Under the pieces are notes generated by a model, which had not been told where the DNA came from, searched no databases, and saw only the letters and a list, made by a program, of their open reading frames with translations. Shown one piece after another: positions 31,286 through 60,683 of a DNA stretch of 64,000 bases (the stretch's first letter is position 1; the number at the start of each line of letters is the position of its first letter). The stretch comes from Streptomyces rhizosphaerihabitans (GTDB lineage: Bacteria; Actinomycetota; Actinomycetes; Streptomycetales; Streptomycetaceae). Where the stretch lies: positions 124,001 to 188,000 of the forward strand of contig NZ_JAODTZ010000012.1 in NCBI RefSeq assembly GCF_025399795.1, in the 5' to 3' direction. Made by a program: the position numbers and the translations under genes.

Positions 31286-31956
31286 ATGACCGCACCCCCG
31301 CCCCCTGTCCTGCCGGACGAACGTCTCGCGGCCGGCATTTCCGCTCTCGCCCTCCGCTACCGCGGGCGCTTCTCGCCCGAGACCGTCCAGCGCCTGGTCA
31401 TCGACTCCTACGACCGCCTCGCCGAGCACGCGCGCGTCCGTACCCACCTGGTCGTGCCGGCCGAGCACCTCGCCGCCGAGAGGCTCGACGCACTCGCCCG
31501 CGTGCAGGGGGCGCCTGGTGTCGGTCTGCCCCGTGTGCTGTTCGTGTGCAGCCTCCCCCACGTTCGAACAACCTCGCGCGGGGGACCCCCACCGCGGGCC
31601 GCTCGCAGATGGCCGCCGCCCTTCTCGCGCACCGCGCCGGCGGCCATGTCGTCGTCTCCTCAGCCGGTACGCACCCTGCCACCGAGGTCGGGACCGTCGT
31701 CGCGCAGGTTCTGGCCGAGGCCGGAGCGGACGTCACGGACGCCTGTCCCGAGCCGCTGACCGACGAGGTCGTGCGGGCCGCCGACATCGTCATCACGATG
31801 GGGTGCGGGGACGCGTGCCCGGTCGTGCCCGGCCGCCGCTACCTGGACTGGCCCGTGACGGACCCCGAGGGCGCACCGATCGCCGTCGTCCGCGGAATCC
31901 GCGACGAGATCGACACCCGTATCACCGAACTGCTCGACTCCATGCGGATCACCTGA
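31286..31956 (+). pseudogene. arsC: arsenate reductase with N-terminal three-helix domain, split by a palindromic insert
   Basis: The first frame encodes a three-helix domain (LAAGISALALRYRGRFSPET, then SYDRLAEHARVRTHLVVP) and enters the LMW-phosphatase fold at GLPRVLFVCS. The second frame resumes at AGRSQMAAALLAHRAGGHVV and continues to the end, including MGCGDACPVVPGRRYLDWPV. Between them, exactly in the CX5R catalytic loop, lies about 35 bp of extra GC-palindromic DNA (31553-31590) that also shifts the frame. The gene is therefore inactive. An intact short copy follows at 32068. Confidence 0.88.
31553..31590. repeat. palindromic mini-repeat inserted in arsC
   Basis: CTCCCCCACG begins the insert and GCGGGGGACCCCC ends it, so TCCCCC pairs with GGGGGA, with a further GGGGGACCCCC palindrome at the end. 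Related GC palindromes are at 48680-48716 and 60604-60619. Compared with the intact arsC at 32068 the net gain is about 35 bp. Confidence 0.75.
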
Positions 31957-31969
31957 ACTTCCCATCCCG

Positions 31970-32045
31970 CACCATCCGCTCAACCCGCTCAACCCGCTCA
32001 ACCCGCTCAACCCGCACCATCCGCTCAACCCGCACCATCCGCTCG
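31970..32045 (+). repeat. 10-bp tandem repeats between the arsC genes
   Basis: Units of the form CCGCTCAACC and CCGCACCATC alternate seven to eight times in the 111-bp gap upstream of the intact arsC. They lie directly before its Shine-Dalgarno (AAAGGAAG, 32055-32062), so they would form the intercistronic leader. Confidence 0.85.
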
Positions 32046-32067: not shown

Positions 32068-32487
32068 ATGTCCTCCAGCCCGCTCGCCTCCGTCCTGTTC
32101 GTCTGTGTCCACAACGCCGGGCGCTCGCAGATGGCCGCCGGATTCCTGAACCACCTCGCGGGCGACCGGATCGAGGTCCGCTCCGCCGGCTCGATCCCGG
32201 GCGACCAGGTCAACCCCGCCGCCGTCGAGGCCATGAAGGAAGTCGGCGTCGACATCGCCGACGCCAAGCCGAAGATCCTCACCACCGAGGCCGTCCAGGC
32301 CTCCGACTACGTCATCACCATGGGCTGCGGCGACGCCTGCCCCGTCTTCCCCGGCAAGAAGTACCTCGACTGGGCGCTCGAAGACCCGGCCGGCAAGGGC
32401 GTCGAGTCGGTGCGCCCGATCCGGGACGAGATCAAGACCCGCATCGAGGCGCTGATCGCCGAGATCGACGCGAAGCGGGAGGCGTGA
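32068..32487 (+). CDS. arsC: arsenate reductase, LMW-phosphatase fold
   Basis: A 139-aa arsenate reductase. The nucleophilic loop CVHNAGR is at 13-19 (CX5R) and two further cysteines in MGCGDACPVFPGKKYLDW (86 and 90) can form the redox relay to thioredoxin or mycoredoxin. It lacks the N-terminal three-helix domain that the broken upstream copy carries. It reduces As(V) to As(III). An AAAGGAAG site precedes the ATG at 32068, and its stop overlaps the thioredoxin reductase remnant (GTGA). Confidence 0.93.
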   Translation: MSSSPLASVLFVCVHNAGRSQMAAGFLNHLAGDRIEVRSAGSIPGDQVNPAAVEAMKEVGVDIADAKPKILTTEAVQASDYVITMGCGDACPVFPGKKYLDWALEDPAGKGVESVRPIRDEIKTRIEALIAEIDAKREA

Positions 32488-32777
32488 CGTCCGTGACGGG
32501 CACCGGCATGCGCGAGGTCATCGCCATCGGCCACGACCCGCGCGCCGAACTGTTCAACGGCCGGCTCGACTTGGACGACGACGGCTGTCTCAAGGTCCAG
32601 TCCCCTTCCACCCGTACTGACGTCCCCGGGGTCTACGGTGCCGGCGACGTCGTCGACCGCACCTACCGCCAGGCCATCACCGCCGCAGCCGGCGGATGCG
32701 CAGCCGCCCTCGACGCCGAGCGTTACCTTGCTGCCCGAGCAGCGGGCGAACCGGAGCTGGTCGCCGTCAGCGCATAG
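32484..32777 (+). pseudogene. C-terminal remnant of thioredoxin reductase
   Basis: A 97-residue frame begins at a GTG overlapping the arsC stop and reads VIAIGHDPRAELF, GRLDLDDDGCLKVQ, TRTDVPGVYGAGDVVDRTYRQAITAAAGGCAAALDAERYL. This is the last FAD-binding segment of TrxB. The NADPH domain and CxxC are absent. In other ars operons a full thioredoxin reductase (arsT) follows arsC, so this is what remains of it. The short frame could still be translated by coupling. Confidence 0.88.
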
Positions 32778-48652: not shown

Positions 48653-49837
48653 ATGAGCACCTACCGCGACGCGCTGCCCCGAGCTCTCGGCTCCGCTCGA
48701 GCAGGGGGTACCCCCATCGGCTCCGCGCGGGCCACCGTCCTGCGGACCGTGGGGACACGCGAGCGCCGTTCCCATCTCACGGCACCCCGAGTGCCCACCG
48801 TCGGCATCGACATCGGTGGCACGAAGGTGATGGCGGGCGTCGTGGACGCCGACGGCAACATCCTGGAGAAGGTCCGCGCCGAGACGCCGGACAAGTCCAA
48901 GAGCCCCAGGGTCGTCGAGGACACCATCGTCGAACTGGTGCTGGACCTCTCCGACCGGCACGACGTGCACGCCGTCGGCATCGGCGCGGCCGGCTGGGTC
49001 GACGCCGAGCGCAGCCGCATCCTGTTCGCCCCCCACCTGTCCTGGCGCAACGAACCGCTGCGCGACCGCCTCGCCGGGCGGCTCGCGGTGCCCGTCCTGG
49101 TCGACAACGACGCCAACGCCGCCGCCTGGGCCGAGTGGCGCTTCGGCGCCGGGCGCGGCGAGGACCACCTCGTGATGATCACGCTCGGGACCGGTATCGG
49201 GGGCGCGATCCTGGAGGACGGCCAGGTCAAGCGCGGCAAGTTCGGTGTCGCCGGCGAGTTCGGCCATATGCAGGTCGTGCCCGGCGGACACCGCTGCCCG
49301 TGCGGCAACCGCGGCTGCTGGGAGCAGTACAGCTCCGGAAACGCGCTGGTCCGCGAGGCCCGCGAACTCGCCGCGGCCGACTCCCCGGTGGCGTACGGGA
49401 TCATCGAGCACGTCAAGGGCAACATCGGGGAGATCACCGGCCCGATGATCACCGAGCTGGCCCGCGAGGGCGACGCCATGTGCGTCGAACTCCTCCAGGA
49501 CATCGGTCAGTGGCTCGGCGTCGGCATCGCCAACCTGGCCGCCGCCCTGGACCCCTCCTGCTTCGTCATCGGCGGCGGCGTCAGCGCGGCCGACGACCTG
49601 CTGATCGGCCCCGCCCGAGAGGCCTTCCGCCGGCACCTCACGGGCCGCGGCTACCGCCCCGAGGCGCGGATCGCGCGCGCCCAGCTCGGACCCGAGGCGG
49701 GCATGGTCGGCGCCGCCGACCTCGCGCGTCTCGTCGCCCGCCGTTTCCGGCGTGCCAAGCGGCGCCGCGTGGAGCGCTACGAGCGGTACGAGCGCTACGC
49801 CGAGTCCCGTCGCACGACGCAGCAGGAGTCGCGGTGA
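48653..49837 (+). CDS. ROK-family sugar kinase (glucokinase-like)
   Basis: A 394-aa ROK kinase. The ATP-binding motif VGIDIGGTKVMAGVVD, the catalytic-Asp loop VLVDNDANAAAWAEWRFGAG, and the ROK zinc motif HRCPCGNRGCWEQYSSG are intact; the second glycine motif is CFVIGGGVSAADDLL. About 50 residues precede the first motif; they are encoded partly by a GC-palindromic mini-repeat (48680-48716) and are absent from normal ROK kinases. The C-terminus has a repeated basic tail (RRRVERYERYERYAESRR). The stop overlaps the next gene. Confidence 0.92.
   Translation: MSTYRDALPRALGSARAGGTPIGSARATVLRTVGTRERRSHLTAPRVPTVGIDIGGTKVMAGVVDADGNILEKVRAETPDKSKSPRVVEDTIVELVLDLSDRHDVHAVGIGAAGWVDAERSRILFAPHLSWRNEPLRDRLAGRLAVPVLVDNDANAAAWAEWRFGAGRGEDHLVMITLGTGIGGAILEDGQVKRGKFGVAGEFGHMQVVPGGHRCPCGNRGCWEQYSSGNALVREARELAAADSPVAYGIIEHVKGNIGEITGPMITELAREGDAMCVELLQDIGQWLGVGIANLAAALDPSCFVIGGGVSAADDLLIGPAREAFRRHLTGRGYRPEARIARAQLGPEAGMVGAADLARLVARRFRRAKRRRVERYERYERYAESRRTTQQESR
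48680..48716. repeat. palindromic mini-repeat inside the ROK kinase gene
   Basis: CGAGCTCTCGGCTCCGCTCG leads to AGCAGGGGGTACCCCCA; GGGGGTACCCCC is a perfect palindrome and GAGC/GCTC pairs enclose the first half. It is translated in frame as a 12-residue linker in the kinase N-terminus. The sequence type is the same as in the arsC insert. Confidence 0.7.
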
Positions 49838-60323: not shown

Positions 60324-60635
60324 ATGTCCGTGCCTGCGGTGGTGATTCTCCTGGTACCGGGGACGCGGCAGGGGGCCGTGCCCTTCACGTACGAAGACTT
60401 CCTCGGCGCTGGGAAGCTGATCGCGTCGATCCTGGACTACGATTTGCCGTTCATCCCCGTGGTGACGGTCATCGCGCCGGTCTGTATCGGGATGTGTGTG
60501 CTGCTCTCCTGGTTCGCCCCGCGGGCGAACGGGTGGGAGCGGCGCAGTCCCGAGACCGAGGCCGTGGACGTGGCTCCGGCCGAACCAGGGACGCTGCTGC
60601 CGGGTGGGGTACCCCCCACAGCCCCGAGACTGTAG
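60324..60635 (+). CDS. small membrane protein, unknown
   Basis: A 103-aa frame with two hydrophobic segments (SVPAVVILLVPG and PFIPVVTVIAPVCIGMCVLLSW) separated by a polar loop (EDFLGAGKLIASILDYDL). The C-terminal 15 residues are read from a GC palindrome (60604-60619) and look like an accidental extension. GGGAG is about 9 bp before the ATG at 60324; the frame is open back to 60177. I do not recognise it; it may be the remnant of a larger transporter. Confidence 0.5.
   Translation: MSVPAVVILLVPGTRQGAVPFTYEDFLGAGKLIASILDYDLPFIPVVTVIAPVCIGMCVLLSWFAPRANGWERRSPETEAVDVAPAEPGTLLPGGVPPTAPRL
60604..60619. repeat. GTACCCC-type palindrome
   Basis: GTGGGG-TA-CCCCCCAC is a nearly perfect palindrome of the kind found at 48680-48716, here near the 3' end of the small membrane protein and followed by GGGGGAGCAGCAG. 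It lies between convergent genes and may help termination. Confidence 0.6.
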
Positions 60636-60683
60636 GGGGAGCAGCAGCTCACAGGGCCAGGCCCGGCCGGCGGCAGCCGGAGA

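Follow-up and report, generated by a model that had tools for sequence, protein, structure and literature searches.

A GC-rich hairpin in the catalytic loop of a Streptomyces arsC gene is probably one copy of a mobile, REP-like family

The arsC locus and its insert

The stretch of DNA analysed here (the window, 64,000 nt; G000:C12:124001-188000) belongs to a Streptomyces rhizosphaerihabitans genome (the source genome, G000) of 10.2 Mb in 244 contigs. It carries two adjacent arsC genes, the first of which is broken (Table 1). The first frame of this gene reads MTAPPPPVLP...RVLFVCS and then departs from the family sequence, which resumes as AGRSQMAAALL; the domain matches fall on either side of the insert, with PF21234 on the 5' side and LMWPc (PF01451) on the 3' side. 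Immediately before the GC hairpin lies TTC GTG TGC AGC (F V C S, 31541-31552), and after it GCG GGC CGC TCG CAG ATG (A G R S Q M, 31594-31611) is found in a different frame. The neighbours are an aquaporin-like membrane gene (assigned by eye), an ArsR regulator (PF01022) and the intact arsC, and the best named relatives of arsC are from Streptomyces; over the site segment, three of these (L342, L347 and L343) have exactly the sequence of other loci of the genus (L109, L111 and L108, respectively). A tandem 9-base repeat (about CTCAACCCG) occupies 31963-32044, between both arsC genes. The thioredoxin-reductase-like gene that follows the intact copy retains only its C-terminal part (32508-32777, by eye), and on this ground the ars cluster seems partly eroded.

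Table 1. Features of the window referred to in the text. Positions are counted from the first letter of the window.
Feature	Position	Strand	Remarks
Broken arsC-like gene	31286..31956	+	PF21234 N-terminal domain and LMW-phosphatase/arsenate reductase domain, in two frames
Cys codon (TGC) and next Ser codon of C-x5-R loop	31547..31552 (Cys = 31547-31549)	+	Just upstream of insert
Whole family motif, T-GGGGG-TCCCCC-inner-GGGGG-AG	31553..31591	-	Window pattern match at 31555-31589
Inserted hairpin, 36 nt (GGGGTCCCCC...GTGGGGGA on minus strand)	31554..31589	-	Extent from the single best ungapped split, made against L101; site empty in all 28 relatives covered
Arg codon (CGC) of C-x5-R loop	31600..31602	+	Downstream of insert, other frame
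Intact second arsC (VLFVCVHNAGRSQMA)	32068..32487	+	
Family member inside ROK-kinase gene, near its start	48674..48716	-	In frame
Diverged family member	60605..60641	+	Drifted copy with matching flanks in relative G339

The extent of the insert was taken from the ungapped split that fits best against L101, the nearest relative with an empty site (80% identical). In this split 36 nt stand in place of one ancestral base, a net gain of 35 that falls after the Cys codon and before the Arg codon of the C-x5-R loop and shifts the frame. A sequence-only reading of the window had described about 35 bp of GC palindrome interrupting the active loop of arsC, and this description is borne out with only that refinement. 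Aligned loci were drawn from searches of 41 and 392 genomes. In the resulting alignment of 30 rows (the source genome and 29 others) the site is filled only in the source genome and is empty in 28 others; L126 does not cover the site, and the G241 match is not in the alignment. The possibility raised against the earlier reading, that the insert belongs to the ancestral gene family, is contradicted by every relative covered, and the alignment identifies the arsC copy as a derived insertion. In a separate set of named loci, C-x5-R-S/T is kept in frame in 79 of 80, the exception being L403, which begins inside the gene. Since the insert parts the Cys from the Arg codon of the catalytic loop and also shifts the frame, the broken gene as read would give no working enzyme; slippage on the C5/G5 runs might in principle restore the frame. 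The insert may alternatively be an assembly error, against which stands its identity as a canonical member of the family described below.

A dispersed hairpin family

Searching the source genome with the arsC stretch returned no second copy of the arsC element, and a repeat search on the arsC region gave no repeats. Rfam covariance models had no match up to an E value of 1 at 31300-31900, a phage search had no match, and a plasmid search had one (79% identity, E 0.6). In other genomes there were 13 element-only matches to the arsC copy. Nine of these were fetched and all nine, from other species, are family copies with a similar CGCGCGAG...TTCG core.

Members of the family follow the consensus (A)T-GGGGG-NN-CCCCC-variable part-GGGGG-AG and are about 30-45 nt long, with an inner part that is highly variable (for example GCTCGAGCGAAGCCGAGAG, GGACGGAGTCT and TGCTCTTTAAGAGCTT). 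Within the window, the pattern GGGGTNCCCCN{8,34}GGGG has four matches at three sites against 0.52 expected, at least four being reached in one of 100 shuffles. The same type of palindrome had been reported from the window's letters in the ROK kinase gene and near 60604, and the motif is indeed present at both places (Table 1). The search for further copies in the genome likewise revealed a dispersed family, as the strict pattern (GGGGGTNCCCCCN{8,34}GGGGNAG) matches 28 times in the source genome and its reversed control not at all; a looser pattern matches 45 times against 19 for the reversed control. All such counts take in passengers within MITEs and composite repeats, and most of the copies examined come from searches by patterns with set ends, the AG end being required in the majority of them. 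Across the genus, the strict pattern is found at least once in 343 of 392 genomes, with a range of 0-157 matches per genome, and reversed-pattern counts in the same 392 genomes are mostly 0, with a maximum of 6 (G278). A class-wide draw of 246 genomes has the motif in 18 of 22 genus members and in 12 of the 224 genomes outside the genus, where it is matched one to three times each. The open-access literature yielded no description of this hairpin family (subscription journals and preprints lay outside this search), and a literature search with the element's own letters returned only papers unrelated by title.

Copies also occur in more complex arrangements. A tandem pair at L290 (G382:C7) shares one G5 run, which suggests that arrays grow unit by unit. 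Hairpins are further found inside other dispersed repeats of the CAGCCC..TCCGGCGTTTGAGGA type, forming composite repeats, both in the source genome (L199, L209, L210 and L218) and in other genomes (L297, L299, L300 and L303-L305).

In predicted folds the C5 and G5 arms pair, and the inner part helps modestly. Folded as DNA, the minus strand of the arsC element reaches -9.8 kcal/mol (z -1.38, 21 of 200 shuffles as good) and the plus strand has a z of -0.59 (60 of 200 shuffles as good); the corresponding values are z -0.30 (71 of 200) for the ROK copy and z -1.49 (15 of 200) for the copy at 60605. When each of 81 distinct inner sequences was ranked against its own shuffles, 62 came out in the better half and 19 among the best 5 of 100. 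The fold is only modestly better than that of shuffled sequences.

Filled and empty sites, and copies captured in frame

The flanks of 16 source-genome sites were searched in six relatives, and 15 sites were aligned, L035 being left out; L043, L047, L206 and L214 had no usable empty site. L050 and L202 are each empty in five relatives, L057 is empty in four and filled in two, and L220 is empty in G116 and carries a diverged element in G227. L033 is empty in two relatives by alignment, and in more by comparison among sequences. Both states are also seen within the source genome. An IS605 copy (L065) contains a 30-nt member of the family, and its siblings, whose flanks are 87-95% identical, are empty. 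Similarly, a MITE of about 160 nt is present with no hairpin (L144), with one (L038, 196 nt) and with two (L039, 229 nt), the flanks of L144 and L038 being 98-100% identical. The MITE loci are L038-L062 (for example L039, C6:144632-147651) and L144, with ends CTAAGGGCTGTCCCGTAAT...ATTACGGGACAGCCCTTAG, and the hairpins may hitchhike on this element. In 3 of 40 copies fetched from eight other genomes (L292, L293 and L316), the hairpin is nested in an older one, each time at an identical position.

The comparison of empty and filled sites in relatives, which the earlier reading had put forward, finds both states at other copies as well as at arsC, and we infer movement of the hairpins from it: filled and empty sites, some of them within one genome, show repeated insertion. 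Loss of an element, not gain, may account for the difference at L201, at L054 and at the second MITE site.

The hairpin is found in coding DNA in arsC, in the ROK gene and in an IS605 copy. At L033 (G000:C5:84776-87795, element at locus 1478-1521) a hairpin frameshifts a thioredoxin-reductase-like gene similar to those adjoining arsC in relatives; this gene has another small indel upstream (by eye) and looks already decayed.

The window had been read as giving direct evidence that such elements move into coding DNA. For arsC, where all 28 covered relatives are empty, insertion into coding DNA is supported; for the ROK kinase gene the statement needs qualifying, as the copy there is in frame and old. 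The long form of the ROK N-terminus, with about 13 extra codons (ALPRALGSARAGGTPI and variants), is present in 17 of the 30 best-matching loci, the source genome included, and is lacking in the other 13. Because the in-frame long form is shared by this many loci, the ROK copy is an old insertion, captured in frame. Copies also precede RMYRTGD in NRPS adenylation domains of G051, in frame by eye. Several adenylation domains of this one genome carry the hairpin at the same place (L310-L314, G051:C2), and these copies have perhaps spread by gene conversion between modules. Four representative elements contain no stop in any of the six frames, which would allow some copies to survive as in-frame peptides (in the ROK kinase and, by eye, in the NRPS); others, as in arsC, would kill the host gene.

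Taken with the family described above, these observations make it probable that the hairpin in arsC belongs to a non-autonomous, REP-like family of mobile hairpins in Streptomyces. The alternative that carries most weight, a real possibility that we nonetheless rate below an even chance, is that arsC reached the source genome by horizontal transfer with the hairpin already in it, so that nothing moved at this site in the source genome. The gene is patchy, with matches at E <= 1e-50 in 31 of 392 genomes including the source genome, and the genomes closest at the ROK locus (G236, G339, G110 and G223) are not among these 31. This patchiness, the lack of a sister of the arsC element in the source genome and the similar elements in other species together make it possible that the insertion predates the arrival of the gene and took place in a previous host. 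On the other hand, no filled arsC relative was found, leaving the source of such a transfer unseen, and other sites show insertion inside the source genome. Horizontal transfer would in any case put the insertion in another genome but leave it the same kind of event.

Junctions and candidate movers

If the arsC insert is a copy of a mobile family, the junctions may indicate how its members are inserted. We compared 15 valid filled/empty pairs, excluding the NRPS comparison, which involves a paralogous domain of another genome and whose filled segment matches none of the retrieved sequences. No clear target duplication was found in the 15 pairs: direct repeats close to the junctions reach 3-4 nt in 13 of them and 5 nt in L213, where the repeat consists partly of element bases, and the 6-nt direct repeat of the IS605 pair already occurs twice in the empty site. 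Unique best splits have one target T replaced by 36 (arsC), 39 (L050) or 37 nt (L057), and all three empty sites read TG-T-GG around the replaced T. Automatic splits of the 15 pairs leave residuals of 0 to 6, several being ambiguous, with no constant four replaced bases. With boundaries placed by hand, which at several sites are not those of the automatic splits, the terminal A takes the place of a T or C in 13 of 15 pairs, and the replaced base is followed by G in all 15. The second MITE site and the IS605 site, at which G is replaced and not a pyrimidine, break the resulting NNGYG target, and we regard it as a lead, not a result. A target of TGTG only was dropped after GAGC, CGGC and AG sites turned up. 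On the left side, three loci (L212, L221 and L278) carry some 12 additional bases that are unexplained.

Genes linked to the hairpins were sought among ORFs of at least 90 codons lying within about 1.5 kb either side of 61 non-redundant loci (from 83, many of them in the source genome). No transposase family occurs near three or more of the 61 loci; the only ORF families that do are ABC ATPases (5) and a mixed regulator-like group (3), both named by eye. This agrees with a reading that dispenses with a transposase altogether, in which short single-stranded or broken DNA bearing a hairpin is captured at replication forks through microhomology and template switching. The lack of a clear target duplication and the small altered patches at the junctions fit such capture, as do AT being the commonest dinucleotide 5' of the G run (48 of 121 copies) and the few targets that look, by eye, like small inverted repeats. 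However, random capture is not expected to give copies with common ends, even though the collection patterns favour such copies, nor does it sit well with hairpin counts that differ sharply between species, and we consider this reading rather doubtful.

IS200/IS605 elements are single-strand transposons, and the TnpA of resident elements might mobilise the hairpins in trans as single-stranded DNA. The source genome has eight Y1_Tnp matches, and the three proteins tested score as IS200 transposases. At E <= 1e-5, 19 of 24 high-copy genomes have a Y1_Tnp match, compared with 5 of 24 genomes with no hairpins, counts that include no correction for shared ancestry, and this excess may hint at a link to the hairpins. 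Hairpins also lie at IS605 ends, but by eye these differ in sequence, and whereas the two systems are alike in having a hairpin and no clear target duplication, the Streptomyces element is one hairpin and not a left and a right end, and it alters target bases. Moreover, five of the 24 high-copy genomes (G249, G347, G275, G105 and G333, with 39-63 hairpins) lack a Y1_Tnp match at this threshold, and G160 has 11 Y1_Tnp matches and no hairpins. The case for TnpA as a necessary partner is weakened, and mobilisation by it appears unlikely.

Mobile hairpins of the REP type are usually explained by a RAYT partner. REP/REPIN elements with RAYT transposases are treated in PMC3116915, PMC2817692 and PMC3733652, and a word search of PMC3733652 and PMC6006769 finds no mention of Streptomyces or Actinobacteria. 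The size of the Streptomyces hairpins, their GC-rich palindromic shape, their many copies, which are non-autonomous and vary between genomes, and the occasional tandem or nested copy all resemble REPs, and a RAYT-like protein had been suggested as their partner. This suggestion fared poorly. With the curated cut-off of NCBIfam REP_Tyr_transpos (NF047646), no protein scored above threshold in the source genome or in 49 others, comprising 24 with at least 39 hairpin matches and 25 of the 49 with none. Weak matches below the cut-off occur in 15 of the 50 genomes, and those present in both searches coincide with Y1_Tnp places. In a control of 14 genomes, six had a match and one exceeded the cut-off, and the search could therefore overlook a divergent RAYT. 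Of 121 copies collected by pattern, 5 have GTAG no more than 8 nt from an end (28 have CGTC there, a count with no chance level computed), and 2 have an inverted neighbour at a distance of up to 150 nt. Unlike REP/REPIN elements, the family also inserts into coding DNA and has a G5-N2-C5 head. The hairpins are therefore REP-like in shape but fall outside REP/REPIN membership by RAYT, by tag and by inverted pairing, and it is very improbable that they are an ordinary REP/REPIN moved by a RAYT. Growth of a local palindrome by slippage, to which homopolymer and palindrome runs are readily prone, was rejected as next to impossible, as the specific inner sequence of the arsC element recurs in nine dispersed copies in other species.

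Other families of short elements offer partial likenesses. MITEs are similarly non-autonomous and dispersed, and some MITE copies carry the hairpins, but the hairpin has no body bounded by terminal inverted repeats and shows no clear target duplication; the MITE serves as a host, and the hairpins are not MITEs. The GC clusters of yeast mitochondrial DNA are likewise short mobile GC palindromes, differing in compartment and in sequence. The review PMC10969869 describes Rickettsia palindromic elements of about 150 nt which, like some of the hairpins, are captured in frame inside proteins; the Streptomyces hairpins, at about 30-45 nt, also break genes, and the two are set apart here by size and host, not by sequence.

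We return to the preferred reading, a mobile family of which the arsC insert is one copy. In the mechanism that we envisage, the hairpin would move as a single-stranded intermediate and would be joined to its target by an enzyme acting in trans, one that is not a recognisable RAYT. More broadly, and as a tentative proposal, Streptomyces might possess mobile hairpins of a class that needs no RAYT. On insertion, a hairpin of 28-40 nt with a terminal A would replace the pyrimidine of an NNGYG-type site, usually together with preceding bases, and would not duplicate the target; the process would pass through a single-stranded stage and depend on a mover of unrecognised kind. Landings in frame would then have added peptides to conserved enzymes, and those out of frame would have killed other genes. 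With members in 343 of the 392 genus genomes, filled and empty sites and hits in coding DNA, the family offers a tractable case for how such hairpins move, and it would show short mobile DNA editing the genes of antibiotic-producing bacteria.
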